From contig JAFGJS010000078.1 of the NCBI GenBank assembly GCA_016928995.1, positions 1 through 40,426 on the forward strand: a DNA stretch of 40,426 nt. The letters are read 5' to 3'. Below, one piece after another: positions 14,447 to 27,989 of this stretch. The position numbers were made by a program, and so were the translations under genes. Within the stretch, counting starts at the first letter, position 1, and each line of letters opens with the position of its first letter. The notes below the pieces were generated by a model that was not told where the DNA came from, did not search any database, and saw only the letters and a list, made by a program, of their open reading frames with translations. This DNA comes from Candidatus Sumerlaeota bacterium (GTDB taxonomy: Bacteria; Sumerlaeota; Sumerlaeia; JAFGJS01).

Positions 14447-17400
14447 TTAATACAAATGCCAAAATCCGGCGTTTTGGAGCAAAGTCAGCAGGACGCTCTC
14501 CGCGCGAGTTGTGCGTCCGGAGTATTCGGCGTAACCGGAGACAATGTAGTATTCCCTGTCATGGCCTTCCGTGTCCCATTGGACATTGATGTTCTGCGTC
14601 GCACCCGGCGCCAGGCCGGTAATCGCCTCTTCGAAACGTTGCACCTCGACGCCAGCGGGATTGCGAATGATCAAAATCGCGTCGCCGGACGCTGTGGCGC
14701 CGCCGGTGTTTTTCACGGTCATGCTCAGCGCAATTTGATCGCCTTCGTTGTATTGCTCAGGCGACGCCTGAAGCGCGATAAGTTCCAAACGAGCGCCCAG
14801 CACTTCCATCACGGTTTCGTTTTCCGCGATCAACCGCGCCTGCGCATCGTAAATGCGCACCTCCACGCCGTACAACCCCTCTTCCATGCCTTGCGTGGAT
14901 AAATCGAGCGTGAGCGTGCCGGTGCTGTCAAGATCGCGCAAGATGCGCAATGGCATGCCCGAAGTGGGAGCGTCATGGCCAAACGGCCGGATCGACACAT
15001 CGCAAGTCACATCCATCGCCTCGCCGCTGTTGACCAGCGTCACGGCGATGGTTGTGGATTCGTCGGGCAGCAGAACGCCGGCATTGCGCCTCAATTTCAA
15101 TTTCACATCAGCGTCGCTCGCCGTCTGCACATCGAAACTATACCCGTGATAACAGATCGCTTCTCCCTGTGCCGGTAGAATGCGGAAGGGATAAATCGTC
15201 AACACAAGCACATCAATGCCTTCGTCTTGACCGACGCTCCATTCAAAGAATTGCTCCGGCCACCACTGGTCGTCCGGCTCCGGCAGCGAGACCGCCGGAC
15301 CTTCCATGACGCCGTTCACAGCGTCTTCATCGAGTTCCAATTCGATCCCGCTGGTGGTTTCTTCGTCGCTGATCCCGCTCAGCGTCACATCCAGGATGCG
15401 AAGTCCGTCGGCCAGCGGCCAGACCTGGCGATAGTACGGCACAACCGGATTGCCGGGAATCATATAAGAACCTTGATCGGTAAAGCGCACGCTGAGTTTG
15501 CCGTCTTCCTTCACCGCATACTCAAAATCGGGAATCGTAACATCGAGCGTCACATCGCCGGTGATCGCCGGGGCGGCGGACTGCTTAGGCGCCGCTCTTG
15601 GCGGCGCGGAAGATACTACGGAATCCAACCCTAACTTGGGATCGCCGTAAAGGTTATATTCCGCCACCCAGCGCCGGTTGTCGTAGTTCGACCAGCTGGA
15701 CGTATAATCGGTGCGAAAATCGCGTTTGGCCTTGCGCAAAGCCGAACCGACGTTTTCCCGATCCCTGATATATTCCGACTGGAAACTGCGCGCGCCGTCG
15801 TTGTTTTCACCACGCGGCGAAACCTCTACCGCGCCGACGTACGCCGCGGCGCCGAGGCGCATAAAGTCCTCGCCTAATCCAGTGAAATCATCCCGATCTC
15901 CTTCATATTCTCCTGATTGGCAGGTCCAGCCGCAGACTACGGGATGGCCCGTGCCCAGGTCCGGTTCATTCAGCCTGCTCGTGCTGGTCACATCCGCCCA
16001 GCCTCTCGTGCTGCCATGACCACGGTAGACAATGTAATCGGAATCGGGGGCATTGGCTTCAAAATGATCGATCAGACTCGATCCGTCAACACGGCCACGC
16101 ACCACAGTGTCAAAGTAGCTATCGGCCTGATCCTGCAAGTCGGCCACGCATGTGCGGAAGTAAGAATAACCGTCGCCGTCGCCGGAATACAGCGCGCACT
16201 TGTCCAATCCCAGGGTGTATCCTGTCCCGCTGTAGATCAATTGAAGAGATGTATTCAATGTTGTGAACAATTCATTCGCAGTGTTGCCGATGACGCGCCC
16301 CACTCGCAGTTCCGGCTCCCAGCTGTTTCCGCCGGTGTTGGCGTAAAGCATATCGCTCGGATAGATGTGTTGGGTGGTCCAGGTCCAGGCAGATACATCC
16401 ACCGTATCCGCCGGCAGGATCTCCGTCTCTCCGACCAGCAGCAGATAGCCGCCACTGGAAAAGCCCGGCGCCATCAACTCCGACCAGGCTCCGCCCTCGA
16501 CCAATAGATCAGTGATCTCGCCGCGGTCCAGCGTCATTGCCGCATAAGCCACCACGCCGTCCCGTTCCGACGCCAACTTGCCCATCGCCTTTAAAATCGC
16601 CATCACCTCGTCCCGTTGCGCGCGCACAGTGTCGGGATCGGAAAAGTATCCCCCGCCGAAATCATGCAGCAAATGATAAGGGCAGGTCATGATGATGTAG
16701 TCCATATCATCGCACACATCGCGGTACATGTCATAAACTGTGCCGCTATCAGGCGTCGCCGGAGGCAGATCCAACTCCCACTCGTCACGCTCGGAGAGAA
16801 CCCCTTGCCGCCATTCGCCGCCATAAGTGACGGTTCCCTCCTCGCCCATGCTGGGCGCCACCAAGGTCGGCGCGGTCAGAAGCGGCATGCTCCGGATGAT
16901 GATATTGATTGTGCAACCCGCCGGATAGGATGTGTAATTGGGATTGATGGAAACGATCGAGCCGTCATCATCGTAGTCGAAAATAATGGTGGGATCCGGA
17001 TCATCGCCGCCTGCTCCTGAAACAAAACAATAAGCGTCGAATGCCTGAAAGCCTTCCAGGAAATAATCATCCAGACGAAAACTATCCGCGTCTTCCAATC
17101 CGACATTCTCAAAATTGAGTTCCGTGCGAACGCAGTGATAATACCCGTTCCATTCCGTATAGTTCTCAACCAGATCGAATTGCGGACGCTCCAGTACCGC
17201 ATTATTCACTGTCACAGTCTCTTCGTAGGAACCGACATTGCCCCACGCGTCAGTGGCTTCAAAACGCACCGTGTGCGAGCCGTTTGTCTCCGCCAGGGTG
17301 TTCCAGTGAAAGGTGTGGTTGGCGTCGCCCGGATAGAATTCCTCCCGATCCTCAATATAAATCACCCGGAAAAGATCCGCTTCATCGCGCAACGCCCCGT

Positions 17401-18469
17401 CCACATAGAACGCCACGTTGTCCAGTCCGCCCGATTCATCATGCAGGCTCAACGGCATGTCGATGGTGTAGGAACAGGTCAGCGGAAAGGAGAAATTCAA
17501 TGTGATCTGAGGATTAATCAGATCGTCCAGATAGTCGAAGATGCTATCGCCGGTCGTGAAGTTGCCGGCGGAATCAAAGGCCCGGATTTCCATGCTGTTG
17601 GCGCCAGAGGCAAAACGATGCAGGGAGACTTCCATCTTATAGGGCGCGCTGTAATCCACTCCGAGGAATTGCGAATTCATCCAGAATTCCACACGATCCA
17701 CGCCAATGTTATCCTTAGCCGCGCCGATAAAAGCGACTTTCTGGCGGCCGATTTCACGAGGCTGGGCCGTGACGCTCGCCTCCGTCGGCGCTTCGGAATC
17801 GTCGCTGTCCGGTTGCGTCAGGAAGAACTGCATTGAACTGGTCGTCGCATTGCCGGCATCGTCAGTGATCGCCACGATGTAATGATACATCGATCCCGGC
17901 TCCAGACCGGTCAGCAGCGCGTCAAAGCTCATTGACTGCTGAGGATGATCATAGCTTTCGGTCAACACGCCCGCCTCGCGGCCATACAACACGCGAGCGT
18001 ATACATTCTCATACGTCGTAAACAAGATATGCGCGGAGTTGTTGTCGACGTTATTCGCGTAGGGCTCCTGTTGAAAGAGAGGCGCAATGACGTCTTCCAG
18101 CCAGACCTCCGTGCGCGAATTGTTGTTTTCGTCCTCCTCGGCGATTGCAAAAAGCGAATCGGCGATCACAGTGACGTTGAACGTGGGATTCGGTGACGAT
18201 GGCGTTTGGGGAAACACGCCGTTATAGCGTTCCTTTGCGTTCAATCCCAGTTGAAGGTCCACCGACACGAAATTAACCGCGTCCACCTGCATTTGCATGC
18301 GGAAGGTTTGCGTGGTGAAGGCGTCGCCCTGATTCTGAATCTGGTAGGCTGCGATTCCCTGACTATCCCAGATGTCCGTGACGATCAAATCCGGCTTGCA
18401 CCAAAGAGAAACGGCATTGAGGCACACGATACAGAGGAAGACATAGTGAAATCGGTAGGACGAACGCAT
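14447..18469 (-). CDS. Secreted gingipain-like C25 cysteine protease with CARDB/Ig modules
   Basis: A 1340-residue exported protein. Order: signal peptide (~1-24); CARDB-like domain (~25-120); fibronectin-III-like segment; Ig-like domains (~240-420); peptidase C25 catalytic domain (~590-950); a propeptide-C25-like domain (~965-1120, with VTIPDF, YMIPGNPVVPYYRQ and TIYPFRILPAQGE); and two C-terminal Ig/CARDB-like domains. The catalytic pair is visible: His818 in YRGHGS and Cys850 in TCQSGEY, matching gingipain GHG and CxxGxF patterns. Family members are secreted endopeptidases. The propeptide-like part follows the catalytic domain, the reverse of gingipains. No recognisable T9SS or PEP-CTERM sorting tail is present; the protein ends GFWHLY. 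The longest open frame starts at 18499; ATG 18469 has GGAGA upstream and starts the signal peptide. Confidence 0.88.
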   Translation of the reverse strand: MRSSYRFHYVFLCIVCLNAVSLWCKPDLIVTDIWDSQGIAAYQIQNQGDAFTTQTFRMQMQVDAVNFVSVDLQLGLNAKERYNGVFPQTPSSPNPTFNVTVIADSLFAIAEEDENNNSRTEVWLEDVIAPLFQQEPYANNVDNNSAHILFTTYENVYARVLYGREAGVLTESYDHPQQSMSFDALLTGLEPGSMYHYIVAITDDAGNATTSSMQFFLTQPDSDDSEAPTEASVTAQPREIGRQKVAFIGAAKDNIGVDRVEFWMNSQFLGVDYSAPYKMEVSLHRFASGANSMEIRAFDSAGNFTTGDSIFDYLDDLINPQITLNFSFPLTCSYTIDMPLSLHDESGGLDNVAFYVDGALRDEADLFRVIYIEDREEFYPGDANHTFHWNTLAETNGSHTVRFEATDAWGNVGSYEETVTVNNAVLERPQFDLVENYTEWNGYYHCVRTELNFENVGLEDADSFRLDDYFLEGFQAFDAYCFVSGAGGDDPDPTIIFDYDDDGSIVSINPNYTSYPAGCTINIIIRSMPLLTAPTLVAPSMGEEGTVTYGGEWRQGVLSERDEWELDLPPATPDSGTVYDMYRDVCDDMDYIIMTCPYHLLHDFGGGYFSDPDTVRAQRDEVMAILKAMGKLASERDGVVAYAAMTLDRGEITDLLVEGGAWSELMAPGFSSGGYLLLVGETEILPADTVDVSAWTWTTQHIYPSDMLYANTGGNSWEPELRVGRVIGNTANELFTTLNTSLQLIYSGTGYTLGLDKCALYSGDGDGYSYFRTCVADLQDQADSYFDTVVRGRVDGSSLIDHFEANAPDSDYIVYRGHGSTRGWADVTSTSRLNEPDLGTGHPVVCGWTCQSGEYEGDRDDFTGLGEDFMRLGAAAYVGAVEVSPRGENNDGARSFQSEYIRDRENVGSALRKAKRDFRTDYTSSWSNYDNRRWVAEYNLYGDPKLGLDSVVSSAPPRAAPKQSAAPAITGDVTLDVTIPDFEYAVKEDGKLSVRFTDQGSYMIPGNPVVPYYRQVWPLADGLRILDVTLSGISDEETTSGIELELDEDAVNGVMEGPAVSLPEPDDQWWPEQFFEWSVGQDEGIDVLVLTIYPFRILPAQGEAICYHGYSFDVQTASDADVKLKLRRNAGVLLPDESTTIAVTLVNSGEAMDVTCDVSIRPFGHDAPTSGMPLRILRDLDSTGTLTLDLSTQGMEEGLYGVEVRIYDAQARLIAENETVMEVLGARLELIALQASPEQYNEGDQIALSMTVKNTGGATASGDAILIIRNPAGVEVQRFEEAITGLAPGATQNINVQWDTEGHDREYYIVSGYAEYSGRTTRAESVLLTLLQNAGFWHLY

Positions 18470-18538
18470 AATCGGCTCTCCACGCAATGAGGTTAACAAC
18501 CCGAATCAGAAACAAGAAAAATCACAACAGAGACATAT

Positions 18539-18622: not shown

Positions 18623-19357
18623 TTATTCGCTTTGATGCGCGTGAATCGCTTTCAACAAGGAAGACGCGGCTTTTTCCGCGGCTTTCTTGCGTGCGTCTTC
18701 ACGCCCTTTTTCCTCTACCATGGCCGCGCTTTGGCCTTCCGCCTCGATCGACTCGAACACCTCAGCGGTTCCCAGATCGATCAAACGGCATTCCAATTTT
18801 GAAACAAAGTTGCTGGCGGGTTGTCCGGCAAGATCAATCTGACCGCGTTCGCGCGTCTTGGTGCGGCAGTCAATCGCCACATCGATCTTCAAATCCTCAC
18901 GCCAGCGCTTAAGTTTCGAGGCGTCGCCGGATTCAAGGCTTTGGAGAAACTCCTCATGACGCACGCCCTGCAACTGTGAAAAATCATAGACGGTGTAGCC
19001 CTTCTTGCGCAGGATCTTCTCCAGGGCCATGCGCACATCATCAGCGCCCTCGTCTTCAGGATGCGCGGCCACGGCGATGCGTAAGCTTTCTTTTTGCTCC
19101 GGCGCTGACGGTTTCTCTTTAGGCTGATCCGATGGCGCATCCGCAGTTTTCGGCGGCTTTGGCGCTTCAGGTTCCGGCTCAGCCTTCTGCTCATCCGAAT
19201 TTGAAACAGCTTCAACATTCTCATTGGATGTTGATGACTCGACACTGGCGCCGCCCTGCTTGGATTGCGTCGCAGCTTCATCCGCCTGAGTGCAGGCATA
19301 AAAGCCGATCAGGGACGCCAGGCACAACATCGCGAGATAACGTATGTTAGAAATCAT
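18623..19357 (-). CDS. Putative lipoprotein sharing a domain with the upstream FlgT-like protein
   Basis: A 244-residue exported protein. A short signal segment ends in FYAC (Cys22, a poor lipobox). It is followed by a ~70-residue low-complexity linker rich in Glu, Lys, Pro and Ser that could span the periplasm or cell wall. Then comes a folded domain (~95-240) starting SLRIAVAAHPE. This domain resembles the middle of the upstream protein: both have a helix ending in KKGYTVYD/QKGFDVVD, a segment IDVAIDCRTKT/AEMIVTYKAEA, then a strand on a defined scaffold and an Ala/Lys-rich final helix. ATG 19357 lies inside the upstream gene (11-bp overlap), implying translational coupling and a shared job. 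The longer open frame from 19378 lacks a signal peptide at its start. Function unknown. Confidence 0.8.
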   Translation of the reverse strand: MISNIRYLAMLCLASLIGFYACTQADEAATQSKQGGASVESSTSNENVEAVSNSDEQKAEPEPEAPKPPKTADAPSDQPKEKPSAPEQKESLRIAVAAHPEDEGADDVRMALEKILRKKGYTVYDFSQLQGVRHEEFLQSLESGDASKLKRWREDLKIDVAIDCRTKTRERGQIDLAGQPASNFVSKLECRLIDLGTAEVFESIEAEGQSAAMVEEKGREDARKKAAEKAASSLLKAIHAHQSE

Positions 19358-20510
19358 CGCCGCCACCCCAGGTTGCATCGACGCGGTTCTGTTCCACGCC
19401 GGTGATTTCCAGTTCTTCCAGACCTTCGATGTCCATCAGTTTTTCCGCAAACGCCTCGGCCTGCATCGTCGCCTTAAGGCGATAAATCCCGATGCCGTCG
19501 TTGAATTTCGCAGAGCCTACGGACTTGACGAACCGAATTCCGCCCAGTTTCTTTTTCACCGTTGTATACGCGCGGAAATCCATATTCTTCACGTAGAGTT
19601 CCAGATCGGCGCCCTCGTCGTCGAATTCACGCTTCAACGCCTCAATCACGCCAACCACCACTTTCTTGGACAGATCGTCGCCGGCTTTTTGCAGCGCCTT
19701 GCTGGACGCCTTGCCGCGCGATTCCGAGCCATGGTTGGACTCCGCCGTCAGCGATGAGCGCAAACGACCCGTGTCCACTTTAATCAGCTTGGCGGTCAGG
19801 ATCGCATCGTAACGTTCAAACATGACGCCCATCAGATTCTCGCGTCCGATATGCGTCGCCTCGGCCTTGTACGTCACGATCATCTCTGCGTCGTAGCGCT
19901 TGCCTAACGATGCGGCCGTGCTGTAGTCCTCCAGATTCAATGCCACGTCGCGCGCCTTGATCCGCTCCGCCTGATCCATGTCCACCACGTCGAAGCCTTT
20001 TTGCAACAAGGCTTCCTCGATCTGCTGACGCACATATTCCGTGTCCTTGACTGCACCGTCCACTTTTTCCACGCCGAACACCATGATGCGCTGATGCCCC
20101 GTCACTTCACGCAGCAATCCCAGCGATTGCAAGTCCACGGTCAATTGGCCCACAACCACGTCGGCGGAAATCTTGACCACATAAAAGCCGTCATCATCGC
20201 GGCCTTTGCTCAAAATCTCGAAGTCCTTGATGTAGCCGCGCGATTTGGTGAAAACCTTGTCCGCCACCAGATTGTAGTTCTTCGTCAGAGTGTCCGATCC
20301 GACAATCAACCCCGCGGCCTGATGCACAGCCTCCCGGAAGGCGTCCTCTTTCGCCTCATCAAAGGCGCGCCCCAAGTCTTCCGCTGCGGAACGACCTTCC
20401 ACGACAACCGTATTCACCTCTCCGTCCTGGCCATAGCCTGCCGTTACGGAAGCAACTATCAGAATTGCAATCATCCCCACCACGGTCGGTAAAAAACTAA
20501 AGACGCGCAT
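19347..20510 (-). CDS. Exported FlgT-like/LPP20-like envelope protein
   Basis: A 387-residue protein with a signal peptide (~1-27, ending AGYGQD). Residues ~32-125 match the FlgT N-terminal pattern: VVVEGRSAAEDLGRAFDEA, AFREAVHQAAGLIVGSDT, a ~SRGYIKDFEIL stretch and a final YVVKISADVVV strand. In Vibrio, FlgT is a flagellar H-ring protein, but relatives occur widely without flagella and no flagellar gene is near. The middle (~135-290) resembles the domain of the downstream lipoprotein. The C-terminus (~305-387) looks like a compact alpha/beta domain. GGAG precedes ATG 20510, and a good promoter lies 127 bp upstream. An outer-membrane or periplasmic assembly role is an inference. Confidence 0.82.
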   Translation of the reverse strand: MRVFSFLPTVVGMIAILIVASVTAGYGQDGEVNTVVVEGRSAAEDLGRAFDEAKEDAFREAVHQAAGLIVGSDTLTKNYNLVADKVFTKSRGYIKDFEILSKGRDDDGFYVVKISADVVVGQLTVDLQSLGLLREVTGHQRIMVFGVEKVDGAVKDTEYVRQQIEEALLQKGFDVVDMDQAERIKARDVALNLEDYSTAASLGKRYDAEMIVTYKAEATHIGRENLMGVMFERYDAILTAKLIKVDTGRLRSSLTAESNHGSESRGKASSKALQKAGDDLSKKVVVGVIEALKREFDDEGADLELYVKNMDFRAYTTVKKKLGGIRFVKSVGSAKFNDGIGIYRLKATMQAEAFAEKLMDIEGLEELEITGVEQNRVDATWGGGDDF

Positions 20511-20964: not shown

Positions 20965-22902
20965 ATGAGCCTCAGAACAATGGCTGATGCGCAAAATGTA
21001 AAATCCGGACGAGGCGGTGAATCTCTGATCGCCAGCCTGGTTTTTTGGGTATTGTTCTTTCTTTTTATTCTTTTCTATATTGAACCGACGCTGATTCATC
21101 ATAGTTATTATCCACGCTGGCGGCTGCCGACGTTTGTTCCCGGAACGGATTTTTTTGCCGATTGGCCGCCTTTTCCCGGCAAACCAATTGTGTATCTGTC
21201 AGGATGGATGTTCCATTTATTTTACCTGTCGTGGGCAGGGGCATTGATCATCACCGCCGTCGCCTTTCTCATGTGCCTGGGATTGGACAAATACCTGAAT
21301 GCGATCAGCGGAGACCGTGCGCGCTGGCTGCGATTTGCTCCCGCGCTGGTCGTGTTGGTTCAATACAACCATTACAACGACTTCCTGATGGAGAACCTGT
21401 CGATCGCCTTGTGCCTGCTGTCGCTGTATGCTTATACTCATTTGCCTGTCCATCGTTCAGCGCTTCGTTTTCTGCTGTTCCTGGCGTTCTCCTGCGCCCT
21501 GTATTATATCGCGGTCTACGCCTGGTTGTTATTTTTCCTGCTTGGCGCGATCGATGAACTGCTGCATCGGCGCGACTGGAAAATCGCGCTGGCGCAATTG
21601 GCCGCAATCCTGCCCATGCCCTTGGCGTTCGGTCCATGGATTTTCGACCAGGAACTCATCGATGCATACCGCAGCGTGCTGCCCTATGATCCGCAAATTG
21701 AAGAGCCCGAGCGGATCGTGCTCCAAAGTTTCCTCTACGTATTCATCCTGGGCGCCAGCCTGAGCTGCGCGTCCTGGAATCTTTACAGCAAAAAACGTAA
21801 GGCGAGTCACACGCAATTGAACGCCGCGCAAAAAAATATCGCCGAGACAACGGACGAAAAGCCAAGCTCAAGGCGATTGCGATTCGTTTTGACGACAGCC
21901 ATTCTGCTGATCGTTGTCTTTGGCGCCGCCTGGCTTTCGACCGACCGAGTCCTCAAGATGCGCCTGCGCGTCAGTTATTTTGCCCAACACCGCATGTGGC
22001 CCGAACTCCTGCAGGAAGCGAGCAAACTCAGCGAGCACTATTACGACATCTCCTATTGCCATGATGTCAACCGGGCGCTTTATCACAGCGGACGGCTGCT
22101 GGATGACATGTTCGCGTATCCCCAGCCCATCGGCTGGCAGCTTTACCATGTCGGCGATTCATCGACTCCGCTAGACGCCACGGAAAAGCTGACGCGAAAT
22201 ATCAGCCTGCCTGAAACCTTGTATGAGATGGGGCGCGTCAATGAAGCTGAACACTTCGCGCTGGACGGTCTGACGAATTTAAAATATCACCCGCAGGGTT
22301 TGATGCAGCTCGCGATGATCAATATCGTTAAACATCAACCGGACGCTGCCCGCGTGTTCCTGCGCTCTTTGCGCAAAGATTGCTTTTACCGGGACGAGGC
22401 GCAGGCCGTCCTCGACCAGCTCGACAAGGATCCTGATTTCTCTTCAGATAAGCAGGTCCAGCAGATCCGCGCCAGCATGCCGGACATCGATAAAAGCGGC
22501 GAAAGCACACTGGAGGAGTTGCTGGCAAAGAACGAAAACAATCGCATGGCCTTTGAATATATGATGGCTGATAATCTACAAAAAGGCCAGTTGTCCGATA
22601 TCGCTGAAAATATCAAGCGCTTTGCTAACATGAAGTATCCCGCGCTCCCCCGCACATGCGAGGAGGCGCTGGTGATTTATATGCACAAAACAAACACAAC
22701 CCCGGATTTGCATGGCTATGCCATCAGCCAGGAATCGGTGGAACGCTTTAGCGCGATCAATAATATATTATTCAACAAATATCACGGCGACCCTGTCGCG
22801 GCATTTGAAGAATTGGTCGAGAATTACGGCGACAGTTTCTTCTTTTATTATCTCTACACATACGTCGTCACCAGAGATCCAAACGAGTCCACAACGGGCT
22901 AA
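20965..22902 (+). CDS. Polytopic membrane protein with TPR-like tail, DUF6057-like (copy 1)
   Basis: About 645 residues. The first half has roughly eight to ten hydrophobic segments; the last, TAILLIVVFGAAWL, is followed by a ~300-residue soluble helical domain with TPR-like pairs (LYEMGRVNEAEHFALDGL, LAMINIVKHQPDAARVFLRS). Patterns FYLSWAGALII, DVNRALYHSGRLLDDMF and LPETLYEMGRVNEA fit the DUF6057 family of Bacteroidota as I recall it; function unknown. It is clearly homologous to 26049-27989, and each is followed by a PD40/CxxCH gene. Starts at ATG 20938, 20965 or 20980 are possible and none has a strong ribosome site. Alignment with copy 2 favours 20965 or 20980. The protein probably sits in the inner membrane with its helical tail as a docking surface. 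Confidence 0.85.
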   Translation: MSLRTMADAQNVKSGRGGESLIASLVFWVLFFLFILFYIEPTLIHHSYYPRWRLPTFVPGTDFFADWPPFPGKPIVYLSGWMFHLFYLSWAGALIITAVAFLMCLGLDKYLNAISGDRARWLRFAPALVVLVQYNHYNDFLMENLSIALCLLSLYAYTHLPVHRSALRFLLFLAFSCALYYIAVYAWLLFFLLGAIDELLHRRDWKIALAQLAAILPMPLAFGPWIFDQELIDAYRSVLPYDPQIEEPERIVLQSFLYVFILGASLSCASWNLYSKKRKASHTQLNAAQKNIAETTDEKPSSRRLRFVLTTAILLIVVFGAAWLSTDRVLKMRLRVSYFAQHRMWPELLQEASKLSEHYYDISYCHDVNRALYHSGRLLDDMFAYPQPIGWQLYHVGDSSTPLDATEKLTRNISLPETLYEMGRVNEAEHFALDGLTNLKYHPQGLMQLAMINIVKHQPDAARVFLRSLRKDCFYRDEAQAVLDQLDKDPDFSSDKQVQQIRASMPDIDKSGESTLEELLAKNENNRMAFEYMMADNLQKGQLSDIAENIKRFANMKYPALPRTCEEALVIYMHKTNTTPDLHGYAISQESVERFSAINNILFNKYHGDPVAAFEELVENYGDSFFFYYLYTYVVTRDPNESTTG

Positions 22903-22931
22903 TCAAAAAAAACGGAAGACATGATGAAAGT

Positions 22932-24464
22932 ATGAATAAATTCGCCACACTTTTGATCTTTTCTCTCTGGCTGTTTTGCGCATTCTCTTTCGCTCAGGAT
23001 GCAAGCGAAACAGGCTCTCCCGCCGACCGTCTCCCCAAGATTCATCCCGATTATAGCGATGTTGTCATTCCGCCCAACATCGCGCCGTTGAATTTTTACA
23101 TCGACGAAGCAGGAGACAGCTACCACGTAAAAATACATTCACAAACAGGCGATCCGATTGAAATACACAGCAATCAGCCAAGCATCGAAATTCCGCTAGG
23201 GCAATGGAAAGGCCTGCTCTCCGCCAATCGCGGACAGAAACTCTATATCGATATTGCGATAACGGACACCGCGAATAACCAACGCCGCTTTAAGACCATC
23301 GAGAATGAGATCGCGAACGATGAAATCGATCCTTTTCTGGCGTACCGGAAACTGAACCTGTGTTTGATCTGGAGAGACATGGGGCTTTTTCAGCGAAACC
23401 TGGAAAATTTCGATGAAACCATCGTCTTGCATAATTACTCCTACAATTATGGATGCGCCAATTGTCATACTTTCTACAACAATGATCCCCGCCATATGAC
23501 GCTCCAGGTGCGCTCCACCCTCTACGGCACGCCGATGCTGCTCGTCGATGGCGATGAGGTCGAACCTAAAGCGGTGAAAGGCGAAGCGACGTCCGGCAAG
23601 GCTAACTTCGTCGCGTGGCATCCCAACGGCGAAATCATCGCCGTTTCCGACAATAAATTTTCGATGATGATTCACACGACCGGACAGGAATGCCGCGACG
23701 TGTTCGACGCCGCCGGCGATGTGGACCTGTATTTTGTGAAGACCGGCAAAGTTGTCAGCGAGAGCCAAATCAGCCAGCCGGATCGCATCGAGACCTTTCC
23801 GGAATGGTCGCGCGACGGAAAATATCTCTATTTCTGCAGCGCGCCGCAGCTGCCCCTTGATCGCTATGCCGAGGTCATTTACGACCTGATGCGCATCGCT
23901 TACAATGTTGAAAGCGGCGAATGGGGCGAACTGGAGACAGTGCTGACTTCAGAGGAAGTCAAAGGCAGCGTCGTTCAGCCGCGCTTCTCACCCGACGGCC
24001 GGTTTCTGCTGTTCAATGCCGCCCAATACAGCGACTTTCCCGTCGACAAAGCCAAAAGCGATTTGCACATGCTTGACGTCGAAACCGGCGGACATCGCAA
24101 GCTCTCCATCAGCAGCGAGCGCAACGACTCGTGGCATAGCTGGTCGAGCAACAGCCGCTGGATCGCGTTCAGCAGCCGAAGAATCGACGGCCGTTTCACC
24201 CGGCCATTTTTCAGCTATGTCGATGAAAACGGCGAAGCGCACAAGCCATTCGTATTGCCGCAACAGGATCCGGCATATTACGATTCTTTAACGCGAGCGA
24301 TCCAGGTTCCCGAACTGATCACAGGCCCCATTCCTGTCAAAGGCCGGCAGTTTATCAAGGCGATGAAAGACAACAAAAAGCGCGCCCTGAGCGGAGATTC
24401 TCCCTGGAAATCATCGAAAGAATCCGTTTCCGACACGCCGGCGGCCAATCGAAACTTCCAATAA
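22932..24464 (+). CDS. Exported PD40/TolB-like propeller with CxxCH haem motif (copy 1)
   Basis: 510 residues with a signal peptide (~1-20, AFSFAQ). Order: a ~120-residue N-terminal beta-domain beginning near DVVIPPNIAPLNFYIDE; a linker with DEIDPFLAYRKLN; CANCH at residues 175-179 in NYGCANCHTFYNNDPRHM; then PD40 (WD40-like) repeats such as AWHPNGEIIAV, EWSRDGKYLYFCS, RFSPDGRFLLF and SWSSNSRWIAF. CxxCH is the covalent c-haem attachment motif, so a periplasmic single-haem cytochrome fused to a propeller is the natural reading. A distal haem ligand is not obvious. It starts 30 bp after the membrane-protein gene, so they are probably one operon. It is homologous to the minus-strand gene it converges with. 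Confidence 0.88.
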   Translation: MNKFATLLIFSLWLFCAFSFAQDASETGSPADRLPKIHPDYSDVVIPPNIAPLNFYIDEAGDSYHVKIHSQTGDPIEIHSNQPSIEIPLGQWKGLLSANRGQKLYIDIAITDTANNQRRFKTIENEIANDEIDPFLAYRKLNLCLIWRDMGLFQRNLENFDETIVLHNYSYNYGCANCHTFYNNDPRHMTLQVRSTLYGTPMLLVDGDEVEPKAVKGEATSGKANFVAWHPNGEIIAVSDNKFSMMIHTTGQECRDVFDAAGDVDLYFVKTGKVVSESQISQPDRIETFPEWSRDGKYLYFCSAPQLPLDRYAEVIYDLMRIAYNVESGEWGELETVLTSEEVKGSVVQPRFSPDGRFLLFNAAQYSDFPVDKAKSDLHMLDVETGGHRKLSISSERNDSWHSWSSNSRWIAFSSRRIDGRFTRPFFSYVDENGEAHKPFVLPQQDPAYYDSLTRAIQVPELITGPIPVKGRQFIKAMKDNKKRALSGDSPWKSSKESVSDTPAANRNFQ

Positions 24465-24496
24465 TCAGTAAGCGCATCCATAAAATCGAGGATCAC

Positions 24497-26044
24497 TTAA
24501 TCTTCATAATGCAATTCAGAAGTTGAGTTTGCCTTGGTCGCCGCGCCGGATGTCCAAGGCGATGAAGAACCTGAACCGGTCTTCCGATTGGAGATGATCG
24601 CTTGAGTGAACTCTCTGTCTTCGATCTCGATCGGCGCTTTGATGAGCTCGGGAACATTATAAACTCGAACCAGCCCATCATAGAACGTCGGATCCTGTTG
24701 CGGCAATACGAATGGCTTGTGCGCTTCGCCGTTCTCATCGAAGTAACTGAAAAACGGCCGGGCGAAACGGCCGTCGATACGTTTGCTGTTCAACACGACC
24801 CAGCGTCCGTTGCTGCTCCAGCCATGCCAGGAATCGTTGCGTTCGCTGCTGATGGCCAATTTGCGGTATTCGCCGGATTCCATCGCCATCAGGTATAAGT
24901 CGCATTGGGCTTGATGAATGGGAAAGTCGCTGTATTCCGAGACGTTGAATAACAGAAAACGGCCATCGGGCGAGAAGCGCGGCTGCGTGATGCTGCCCTG
25001 CGCATCCTGCGCCAAAAGCACGGTCTCCAAGTCGCCCCATCCGCCGCTTTCATCATCATAGCCGATCCGCATCAGGTCGCATTGCACTTCCGGATAGCGC
25101 TTTTGAGGAACTTGCGGAGCGCTGCAGAAATAAAGGAATCGCCCGTCGCGAGACCATTCGGGAAAAGTCTCCATGCGGTCCGGCCGGCTGATCTTATCTT
25201 CGCTCACAACCTCGTGGGTGTCCACACGATACAGATCCAAATCACAGGCGCCGTCGAAAACATCGCGCACTTCCTGCGCCTGCGTGTGGATCAGCATGGA
25301 AAATTTATTGTCCGTGATGGCGATGATTTTTCCGTTGGGATGCCAGGCGGTGAATCCGACCTTGCCGCTGGTCGTATCGGACTTCGTCTGGATCGGGGCG
25401 ATGTCATCATTATCCACCAGCAGCATCGGAGTGCCGTATTGCGCGGACCGCGCTTGCAACACCATGTGCTTGGGATCGTTTTTGAGATAACTATGGCAGT
25501 TGATGCATCCGTATCCGTAAGACCGATTGTGCGACACGATTGTCTCTGTATAGCTTTCCAGGTCGCGTTGATAAAATCCCATATCCCGCCACATAATGCA
25601 GATGTTGATTTTCCGGTACGCCACATAGGGATCGATTTCATCGTCCGCGATTTCATTTTCGATCGGCTCGAAGCGGCTCCATTGATTCTCACTGTCATAC
25701 ACATAGACGTAAAAAAAGAGTTTCTGCCCGCGATTGGACTCCAGCAGTTTTCTCCAATCGCTCATCGGAATCTCTATGCTGGGCTTGGCGCTATGAAGCT
25801 CAATCGACTTGCCGTTCGTTGAGCGAATCCTGACGAAATATTCGCTCCCTTTTTCCTCGATGAAAAAATTCAGCGGCGCGATGTTCGGCGGAATGACGAC
25901 GCCGCAATAGTCCGGGCGGATTTGGGCGATACGATCAATCTTTCGGCTTGCATCATCCGGCGCGCCCTTGCCGCACTGGACAAAGGCACAAACGCAAACC
26001 AGCAATGCCGCAAGCGTCATAGATGTTGGCGTAAGAACTCTCAT
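24497..26044 (-). CDS. Exported PD40/TolB-like propeller with CxxCH haem motif (copy 2)
   Basis: 515 residues, paralogue of 22932-24464 along its whole length. The signal segment ends FVQCGKG (Cys23); the lipobox is poor, so lipidation is uncertain, whereas copy 1 has no Cys there. It shares VVIPPNIAPLNF, ENEIADDEIDPYVAYRK, MWRDMG and CINCH at residues 180-184 in YGYGCINCHSYLKNDPKHM, then GTPMLLVD, AWHPNGKIIAITDNKFSMLIHT and RFSPDGRFLLF. Strong conservation around the CxxCH argues that the motif is functional. The open frame extends upstream to 26173, but ATG 26044 follows the stop of the membrane-protein gene by 4 nt and begins the signal peptide. The convergent gap to copy 1 is 32 bp with no clear terminator. 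Confidence 0.88.
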   Translation of the reverse strand: MRVLTPTSMTLAALLVCVCAFVQCGKGAPDDASRKIDRIAQIRPDYCGVVIPPNIAPLNFFIEEKGSEYFVRIRSTNGKSIELHSAKPSIEIPMSDWRKLLESNRGQKLFFYVYVYDSENQWSRFEPIENEIADDEIDPYVAYRKINICIMWRDMGFYQRDLESYTETIVSHNRSYGYGCINCHSYLKNDPKHMVLQARSAQYGTPMLLVDNDDIAPIQTKSDTTSGKVGFTAWHPNGKIIAITDNKFSMLIHTQAQEVRDVFDGACDLDLYRVDTHEVVSEDKISRPDRMETFPEWSRDGRFLYFCSAPQVPQKRYPEVQCDLMRIGYDDESGGWGDLETVLLAQDAQGSITQPRFSPDGRFLLFNVSEYSDFPIHQAQCDLYLMAMESGEYRKLAISSERNDSWHGWSSNGRWVVLNSKRIDGRFARPFFSYFDENGEAHKPFVLPQQDPTFYDGLVRVYNVPELIKAPIEIEDREFTQAIISNRKTGSGSSSPWTSGAATKANSTSELHYED

Positions 26045-26048
26045 CGCT

Positions 26049-27989
26049 TCACTTTTTCTGAATCCGGTTATATCCATATAAATTATAAAAAAAGTAACTA
26101 TCGCCGAACTCCGCTTCCAACTCGCCCTGAGCCGCGCGAAGATTTTTATTGTTGCTTTGAATGATCCGGTCAAACTTGAAAAACCGCTCCTGCGTCTCCG
26201 CGCTGATCGGATAGCCGTTTAAAAAAGGCCTCGATTGCGTGCTGTGCATGAAAATCAGGATCGCTTCCTCGCACGCGCGAGGGATCGCGTCATAATGCAA
26301 CTCCGCCATACGCGCAGTGTTCGTCACAACATCAGCGACTTGATTCGTCTGCAGATAATACGCCATCAAGTATTCAAAAGCCATGCGGTTGTTTGGATTG
26401 ATACGCAGCAAAGTTTCCGGCGAGCATTCCTCAATGCTGTCCTTGACCGGCATGAAGGAGCGTATTCTTTGGATTTCTTCATTCGAGGTGAAATCGGGAT
26501 CCGCATCAAGCTGATCCAAAAGTTCCTGCGCCTCATTCCGAAAGATAAAATCCTCGCGCAGAGCGATTAAAAATGTGCGGGCGGCGTCCGGTTGGCGCTT
26601 GACGATGTTGATCAGAGCCAGCCGTTTCAACACATGTGGATGGTACATAAGACCGGCCAAGGCGTCCAAGGCATAATTCTCAGCTTCATTGACGCGCCCC
26701 ATTTCATACAATGAGTCGCAAAGATTTGAATTCCGCCCCATTTTATCCGCCGGGCTCAGCGAAATTGAATCGTCCACCTTATACAGTTGCCAACCCGCCA
26801 CTTGGGGATAGTGGAAAAGGTCATCCAGCAACCGGCCGCTGTGATAAAGCGCGCGAGAGACATCATGGCAATAGGCGAAGTCGTAATCTTGTGGACCAAG
26901 TTCGTTCGCTTCGCTGAGCAATTCCGTCCACATCTCATGCTGAGCGAAGCACTTGATCCGGCGCCGCTGCCGTTCGACATTATCGGTTGAGAGAAAAACA
27001 GCGATGAGGACAACGATCAGCAGAATCGATGCCGCAAAAACAAGTTGAAGCTTGCTCGCGACCGGCTGTTCTTGAATTTCAGGATCTGTTTCCTCGATTT
27101 CCGGATCCGCGTTTTCCGCGGAATCCGTCGCGTTGACGGAATAACGTTTGAAGCTGTCCTTCATTTTCCCCGCATAAGAGCGCCAAAAGGCGCCGAACAG
27201 ACCGGCAAGCGGAAAAAATAGATAAAGAAACAGATAAAGCCAAGGCCCCTGAAAACCAATGATCAACGGCTCATACGGAAGCGTGCAGAGATATGCGCTG
27301 GCCAAGGTTTGATCGAAGACAAGCATGGAGGCGATCAGCGGAATCAGCAAAACCGAAAGGAGCGCCGCAAGACCGTTGATCCAATGACGCTGGTGAAAAA
27401 CTTCGTAGCTCGCGCAAAGCGCCACAAAGAGCAAATAGGAAAAAACCGCCGCGTAATACAAAATCGCGGAAAGCGCCAGAAATATGATCAAACGTAGCAA
27501 GGGTCGCAGTTTGGACGCGTGCAGATACAGACACACAAGCAGCACGCCGAACGCTATTGAAATGTTCTCCATTAAATAATGGCAATACCGGCTGTATTGC
27601 GCCAGCAGAACGATGGCTGGAACAAAGCGAAGCCAGCGCAATCGTCCGTCGCTCATCGCGCCGATGTATTTATCCGCGCCCCAAAACAGAATCCAGGCAA
27701 GCGCGGTGATGCTGGCGGCGCCCGCCCATGAATAATAAAAGATATGGAGCAGCCATCCTGCCGCGAATACCGCCAGTTTGCCGGGATAAGCCGGCAAATC
27801 GCTGAAGACATTCAATCCCGGGACGTACGGCGGCAAGCGCCAATGGGCGAAGTGGCTGATGTGAATCAGCGCCGGATCGATGTAGAGATAGACATCGAGG
27901 AAAAACAGCAGAAAAAATATCAGGCTCGGAAGTCGCTGTATGAAGTTCCAACCGGACCGTTGCTCAAGCGAGTTCGGCGTGAGGGGCAT
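26049..27989 (-). CDS. Polytopic membrane protein with TPR-like tail, DUF6057-like (copy 2)
   Basis: 646 residues, homologous over its length to copy 1. Shared stretches include IDPALIHISHFAHWRLP/IEPTLIHHSYYPRWRLP, YYSWAGAASIT, LMENISIAFGVLL, DVSRALYHSGRLLDDLFHYPQ, LYEMGRVNEAENYALDAL and NIVKRQPDAARTFL. It has about eight to ten membrane segments, then a TPR-like soluble tail. Its start follows the Rid-family gene stop by 3 nt and its end precedes the PD40 gene by 4 nt, so the three genes form a tightly coupled operon. The loop before the last membrane segment carries an acidic run (ENADPEIEETDPEIQEQP) absent from copy 1. Function unknown; conserved pairing with the propeller suggests a complex. 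Confidence 0.86.
   Translation of the reverse strand: MPLTPNSLEQRSGWNFIQRLPSLIFFLLFFLDVYLYIDPALIHISHFAHWRLPPYVPGLNVFSDLPAYPGKLAVFAAGWLLHIFYYSWAGAASITALAWILFWGADKYIGAMSDGRLRWLRFVPAIVLLAQYSRYCHYLMENISIAFGVLLVCLYLHASKLRPLLRLIIFLALSAILYYAAVFSYLLFVALCASYEVFHQRHWINGLAALLSVLLIPLIASMLVFDQTLASAYLCTLPYEPLIIGFQGPWLYLFLYLFFPLAGLFGAFWRSYAGKMKDSFKRYSVNATDSAENADPEIEETDPEIQEQPVASKLQLVFAASILLIVVLIAVFLSTDNVERQRRRIKCFAQHEMWTELLSEANELGPQDYDFAYCHDVSRALYHSGRLLDDLFHYPQVAGWQLYKVDDSISLSPADKMGRNSNLCDSLYEMGRVNEAENYALDALAGLMYHPHVLKRLALINIVKRQPDAARTFLIALREDFIFRNEAQELLDQLDADPDFTSNEEIQRIRSFMPVKDSIEECSPETLLRINPNNRMAFEYLMAYYLQTNQVADVVTNTARMAELHYDAIPRACEEAILIFMHSTQSRPFLNGYPISAETQERFFKFDRIIQSNNKNLRAAQGELEAEFGDSYFFYNLYGYNRIQKK

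Follow-up and report, generated by a model that had tools for sequence, protein, structure and literature searches.

Paired DUF6057 and PD40 propeller genes in a Sumerlaeota bacterium: an envelope gene pair with a probable c-type haem, and its chorismatase-like neighbour

What are two mirror-image pairs of a membrane protein gene and a propeller gene for, and how did they come to lie tail to tail? The question is raised by contig JAFGJS010000078.1 of Candidatus Sumerlaeota bacterium (assembly GCA_016928995.1), whose 40,426 nucleotides are referred to here as the window. Twice, on opposite strands, a gene of the DUF6057 family (PF19529), predicted to encode a membrane protein with a tail of tetratricopeptide repeats (TPR), is followed by a gene for an exported PD40 propeller with a single CxxCH motif. 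Our analysis identifies this pair as a real and conserved unit of the cell envelope, previously undescribed and probably equipped with a c-type haem. Its gene neighbourhoods point to a predicted chorismatase-family enzyme as a third, enzymatic partner. The features concerned are the following.

20965-22902, plus strand: DUF6057a, starting at ATG 20965 or at TTG 20935, where the frame opens; matches PF19529 and has an AlphaFold2 (AF2) model
22932-24464, plus strand: propeller a, an exported TolB-like six-bladed propeller with one CxxCH motif (CANCH, residues 175-179)
24465-24496: convergent gap of 32 bases between the two stop codons
26044-24497, minus strand: propeller b, starting at an ATG within a longer TTG frame from 26173; CINCH motif and lipobox-like N-terminus (FVQC)
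27989-26049, minus strand: DUF6057b, matches PF19529 and is 49% identical to DUF6057a
29189-27993, minus strand: chorismatase (FkbO/Hyg5)/Rid-like gene, first gene of the minus-strand operon

The open reading frame coordinates bear out the tail-to-tail arrangement across a 32-bp gap, and alignment confirms that both members are paralogous over nearly their full length, with 49% identity over 610 amino acids for the DUF6057 proteins and 59% over 503 amino acids for the propellers, both far above chance. The DUF6057 matches (262.7 bits, E 1.1e-77, for DUF6057a and 253.9 bits, E 5e-75, for DUF6057b) lie well over the curated cut-off of 29.8, and PD40 is matched by both propellers (E 1.4e-14 for propeller a). 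A two-gene unit, as proposed in the original prediction, is correct for the pair itself but not for the minus strand, where the unit starts one gene earlier: it is a three-gene operon in which the chorismatase/Rid-like gene ends 3 bases ahead of the DUF6057b start. No terminator-like site was called in the convergent gap; calls at 24189 and 24775 fall at corresponding places within the two propeller genes, and such calls are overall no more frequent than expected by chance. An RNA family search returned two tRNAs only.

With respect to the pairing, GTDB genomes scanned with a propeller alignment yielded 218 relatives. Of these, 78 loci were retrieved, which by their record titles belong to Planctomycetota, Armatimonadota, KSB1, Calditrichota, Ignavibacteriota, Bacteroidota, Verrucomicrobiota, Lentisphaerota, Hydrogenedentes, Acidobacteriota, Myxococcota and WOR-3. 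DUF6057 lies directly upstream of 69 of the 87 propeller-like genes in these loci, mostly with a 4-base stop/start overlap. The remainder include genes cut off at the end of a contig, members of a separate class of long PD40-TPR proteins and reordered loci. Linkage is kept under other gene orders, with DUF6057 downstream of the propeller in L058 and L073 and divergent from it in L064 and L104; no DUF6057 partner is shown beside the propeller in L080 and L085. Among 23 whole genomes selected by propeller, a partner occurs within 500 bases of 51/55 propellers and 54/58 DUF6057 matches, and copy numbers of the two genes are equal in 21. An independent sample, 294 planctomycete genomes searched for DUF6057 alone, shows the family to be rare there (5 genomes, one being the centre genome), and in the other four positive genomes the propeller adjoins every DUF6057 gene (5/5). 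The two families are thus nearly always adjacent in other genomes, in agreement with the earlier claim that the pair stays together.

The genome to which the window belongs (4.55 Mb, 161 contigs) contains 11 propellers and as many DUF6057 genes that score above the cut-off, each adjoining its counterpart (11/11), and the wider neighbourhoods of these pairs revealed no other common gene. Distance matrices of the 11 pairs correlate strongly (r=0.95, p=5e-5, Mantel test), and for a clade of seven pairs the correlation (r=0.64) is the best of all 5040 permutations; as the pairs compared come from a single genome, species history is no confounder. This shows that the pairs have duplicated as units with no visible exchange of partners, and it is not evidence of contact. 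Because adjacency is near constant, linkage survives changes of gene order and the genes co-diverge as pairs within one genome, the obligate partnership that had been suggested is likely, and DUF6057 and the propeller probably form a physical complex.

In terms of what each partner contributes, both proteins gave confident AF2 models. The propeller model (80 sequences, predicted local distance difference test score, pLDDT, 92.1) is closest among solved folds to TolB (Z 26.5, root-mean-square deviation, rmsd, 3.3, 274 aligned residues), with hydrazine synthase alpha (5c2v, Z 23.8) among the next matches. CxxCH is present in 80/80 family members, once per protein, which upholds the earlier assignment of a haem motif to the propeller; R194 and E287 are likewise found in 80/80, H402 in 75/80 and a hydrophobic, export-type N-terminal segment in 78/80. 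Judged by motif spacing and repeat register, H179 of the CxxCH in blade 1 and H402 in blade 5 would occupy equivalent positions. That equivalence, and the retention of the CxxCH and SWHSWS motifs in a class of longer PD40 proteins, suggests that a haem is bound close to the central channel by two His residues. Genes for cytochrome c maturation, whose presence was a further check on the idea, were found in the genome (ResB, E 3.7e-10, adjoining CcsA, E 6.5e-48). Taken together, these observations make haem binding by the propeller quite probable.

A distant class of long PD40 proteins with a fused TPR tail keeps the CxxCH, a SWHSWS motif and H402. Members were seen at L062:2549-7581, L082:8503-13378, L095:13360-15657 and L118:7864-10209, near pairs or a chorismatase-like gene, and the fusion is a hint that the TPR belongs with this propeller. 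The DUF6057 model (71 sequences, pLDDT 90.6), read with the charge distribution, predicts nine transmembrane (TM) helices with the N-terminus inside and the TPR tail outside. TPR proteins dominate its structural matches for residues 326-496, and only TPR and designed helical repeats were prominent when the PDB was searched with the DUF6057 profile. In the literature searched, no paper mentions DUF6057, in keeping with the original statement that the family has no described function, and none describes a PD40 c-haem propeller of the present type.

The third gene is a single-copy gene in this genome, and its product matches PF01042 (E 1.8e-16), PF21168 weakly and the structure of FkbO (4bps, E 8e-8). 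When neighbours in the fetched loci were clustered, a chorismatase/Rid-like protein recurred in 16 loci, in 12 of which it is less than 600 bases away, and no other operon neighbour showed comparable adjacency. Each of the 23 propeller-selected genomes has one chorismatase-like match with E<1e-20, and in 18 genomes the E-value is below 1e-90. A pair is found no more than 2 kb from 11 of these genes, where 0.12 would be expected. The planctomycete sample agrees, with matches below 1e-90 in 3/4 DUF6057-positive genomes versus 1/76 DUF6057-negative ones (hypergeometric p ~2e-4, computed by hand). Among 40 relatives without DUF6057 over the cut-off, two strong and three weak chorismatase-like matches were found.

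Alignment to FkbO, together with spacing to Nat-hyg5, equates E382 with the catalytic Glu (Hyg5 E334), G296 with Gly-231 and C375 with Cys-318. In Nat-hyg5 the latter two mark the 3-hydroxybenzoate-forming subfamily (PMC7170507), so that two of the three CH-II markers, the third being Gly-164, have been placed on the protein. E382, G296 and C375 are invariant in 38 sequences, and most active-site positions tested are invariant or nearly so.

Building from these results, we propose that each pair would constitute one envelope complex. DUF6057 would be a membrane platform with its N-terminus inside, some nine TM helices and a periplasmic TPR tail on which the propeller would dock. The propeller would be exported, sometimes as a lipoprotein, and would carry one covalent c-type haem, attached at the CxxCH of blade 1. 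This haem would probably be turned towards the central channel and take H402 of blade 5 as its second ligand. A single cytosolic chorismatase-family enzyme would supply a small chorismate-derived aromatic to all pairs in the cell, and the haem propeller might carry out redox chemistry on this compound, either free or linked to a lipid and bound by the membrane domain. The substrate and reaction of the haem propeller are a guess on our part, and the whole chain, an envelope haem complex performing redox chemistry on a chorismate-derived aromatic, is possible rather than probable.

Several observations weigh against this proposal. The third gene's product scores 51.6 bits against TIGR04444 (FkbO/Hyg5), whose curated cut-off is 325. 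One copy has to serve up to 11 pairs, the gene lies away from the pairs and is of weaker similarity in 8/23 genomes, and no chorismatase-like match was found in the DUF6057-positive genome G202. The Mantel test leaves plain co-inheritance of linked genes as a possible cause of the co-divergence. In the AF2 model the CxxCH sits in a beta strand rather than in the usual helix. Finally, conservation in DUF6057 is much lower in the membrane domain than in the TPR tail, which points to a scaffold rather than an enzyme.

In another explanation neither protein would be catalytic, and the two together would sense redox state or a gas, or would serve as a scaffold for electron transfer. A single haem motif with a candidate axial His, the strong conservation of propeller and TPR, and the many paralogues, as in sensor families, would all suit such a role. 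A signalling domain was nevertheless found on neither protein and no regulator or cytochrome is a conserved neighbour, the only strongly recurrent one being the chorismatase-type enzyme, and we think this explanation rather unlikely.

It is also conceivable that DUF6057 works as a GT-C glycosyltransferase whose TPR tail lies in the periplasm, comparable to TMTC and TMEM260, with the propeller as its dedicated acceptor or adaptor. Structural matches to the oligosaccharyltransferase STT3 extend over the whole membrane domain (residues 9-340; 8age, Z 9.9, rmsd 5.2, 278 amino acids; 7oci, Z 9.8; 6s7t, Z 9.6), although values of Z <13 for helical proteins may reflect a common arrangement. GT-C enzymes keep an acidic residue after TM1 (PMC6801728, from which the motif criteria were taken), and DUF6057 has D/E at position 40, just after TM1, in 57/71 sequences, with no DxD. 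P240 is present in 60/71 sequences, yet a conserved R/K before it, as required for the donor motif in a late luminal loop, was not found, and the helices number about 9 versus 11 or 13. Two sub-threshold PF19529 matches are PMT_2 proteins; profile comparison of DUF6057 with PMT_2 gave no support, either with a small set (E 0.066) or with one from this genome (E 0.083), the latter being a weak test owing to truncated frames. In genome G009 two membrane proteins with TPR that resemble TMTC are encoded some 1-5 kb from the chorismatase-like gene. Kinship of the membrane domain with GT-C glycosyltransferases is consequently tentative and serves as a lead only, and an active enzyme appears doubtful. 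In the Sumerlaeota genome (4.5 Mb), 28 PMT_2-type membrane glycosyltransferase matches were counted, and at L116:2477-7094, in a genome without DUF6057, two TMTC-like TPR membrane proteins lie near a chorismatase-like gene.

The CxxCH might instead hold no haem and serve as a metal site or disulfide, the pair being a structural or assembly complex comparable to TolB. The closeness of the TolB fold and the strand conformation of the motif could be taken in this sense. Against it stand the conservation of the full CxxCH, not just CxxC, in every family member and only once per protein, the export-type N-terminal segments, the presence of ResB/CcsA and a score of 35.6 against 343.15 for the TolB equivalog, and we regard a haem-free site as quite unlikely.

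As for the origin of the mirror arrangement, the propeller tree places the copies of this genome in three separate clades, interleaved with Planctomycetota and Lentisphaerota. In a more careful tree propeller b groups with one copy from contig C80 and a Pirellulales metagenome-assembled genome, and propeller a with three other copies from this genome. A local inverted duplication of one pair, the old duplication envisaged originally, is highly improbable despite the full-length paralogy of both members, since propellers a and b group with different copies and their placement as sisters is rejected by the approximately unbiased (AU) test (p=0.0015), which rules it out for the propellers under the model used. 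The most fitting interpretation is that two copies out of a larger family in this genome have ended up next to each other. As a search of 40 other genomes, taken as relatives, gave no DUF6057 match over the cut-off and the tree is interleaved, the data suggest transfer of pairs between lineages followed by expansion here. Contigs C59, C47, C20, C16 and C68 begin or end within a DUF6057 or propeller gene, and two of the truncated genes are short C-terminal propeller fragments. Repeats of this kind have probably interrupted the assembly, so that the count of 11 pairs may be too low.

Distant chorismatase-like genes that do not lie beside a DUF6057/propeller pair were surveyed separately, and hydrazine synthase (HZS)-like genes were neighbours in 6/15 such loci, a small sample in which two loci had been used as seeds. 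In G103 (L173:3697-10007) and G082 (L174:6415-13380), both without DUF6057, the chorismatase-like gene is in an operon with HZS-like genes, encoding alpha-like (PF18582, E 2.5e-23 in L173 and 6.8e-30 in L174) and beta-gamma-like proteins (NF052342, E 2e-35 and 3e-29). In G099 (L183:2026-5058), again a genome without DUF6057, it lies 3 bases from a beta-gamma-like gene, and in L179, L181 and L185 an HZS alpha-like gene is found at a distance of about 4 to 6 kb. No HZS-like match occurred in any of the 78 loci selected by propeller (1.09 Mb). The alpha-like protein of L174 was also seen to end in an FGE-sulfatase domain. Non-anammox HZS homologues are known, with key residues missing, in a report that makes no mention of a chorismatase or Rid protein (PMC12758564).

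These neighbourhoods allow a wider and more speculative proposal, to which we give little credence at present. A chorismatase-family enzyme would feed an aromatic to exported c-haem propellers in an unrecognised envelope system, of which the DUF6057 pairs and the non-anammox HZS-like operons would be two branches, and the ancestral chemistry, before hydrazine synthase, would have used an aromatic substrate or donor. Every part of the DUF6057 unit has a recognisable fold, and in kind the unit would be an exported c-haem propeller protein with a dedicated partner; were the two-branch proposal true, it would be more than a variant of such proteins.

The significance of the locus lies in the tie between DUF6057, a haem-propeller partner and one specific enzyme, which together define a testable pathway, and the chorismatase-like gene is the first concrete lead to the function of the unit, which has a patchy distribution over some ten phyla and has multiplied to 11 pairs here. 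Should a larger sample confirm it, the occurrence of distant enzyme relatives near HZS-like genes would be a first clue to the role of the non-anammox complexes. Elsewhere in the window, a 1350-residue protein with a C25 (gingipain-type) peptidase domain, CARDB and Ig-like domains is encoded at 14447-18499 (minus strand), and two proteins with signal-like N-termini and no assigned function, one weakly similar to the FlgT N-terminal domain, at 18623-20510 (minus strand).

Compared with known systems, the propeller is most like TolB of Tol-Pal, an exported six-bladed PD40 propeller and its best structural match. It differs in that the two propellers score 35.6 and 27.9 bits, below the cut-off of the TolB equivalog (TIGR02800, 343.15), and in that its partner is DUF6057, with no Tol gene among the conserved neighbours; a CxxCH site is not known as a feature of TolB. 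Hydrazine synthase alpha and its non-anammox relatives share with it a periplasmic propeller with c-type haem, the latter a candidate here. PF18582 is matched by neither propeller at E<=0.1, and since HZS-alpha-like proteins carry their CxxCH motifs after the propeller, not within it, and the profiles do not match each other, the two are different families; orthology to HZS alpha is ruled out by the missing domain match and the different haem position. The TMTC and TMEM260 O-mannosyltransferases resemble DUF6057 in having a multi-pass membrane domain followed by an extracytoplasmic TPR tail, whereas DUF6057 does not conserve the donor motif and its GT-C homology is tentative. The third gene, finally, differs from the FkbO/Hyg5 chorismatases in product length (398 versus about 340 amino acids) and in having no biosynthetic cluster among its recurrent neighbours, and it resembles them in its sequence match to 4bps and in keeping both the catalytic Glu and the Hyg5-type Gly and Cys.

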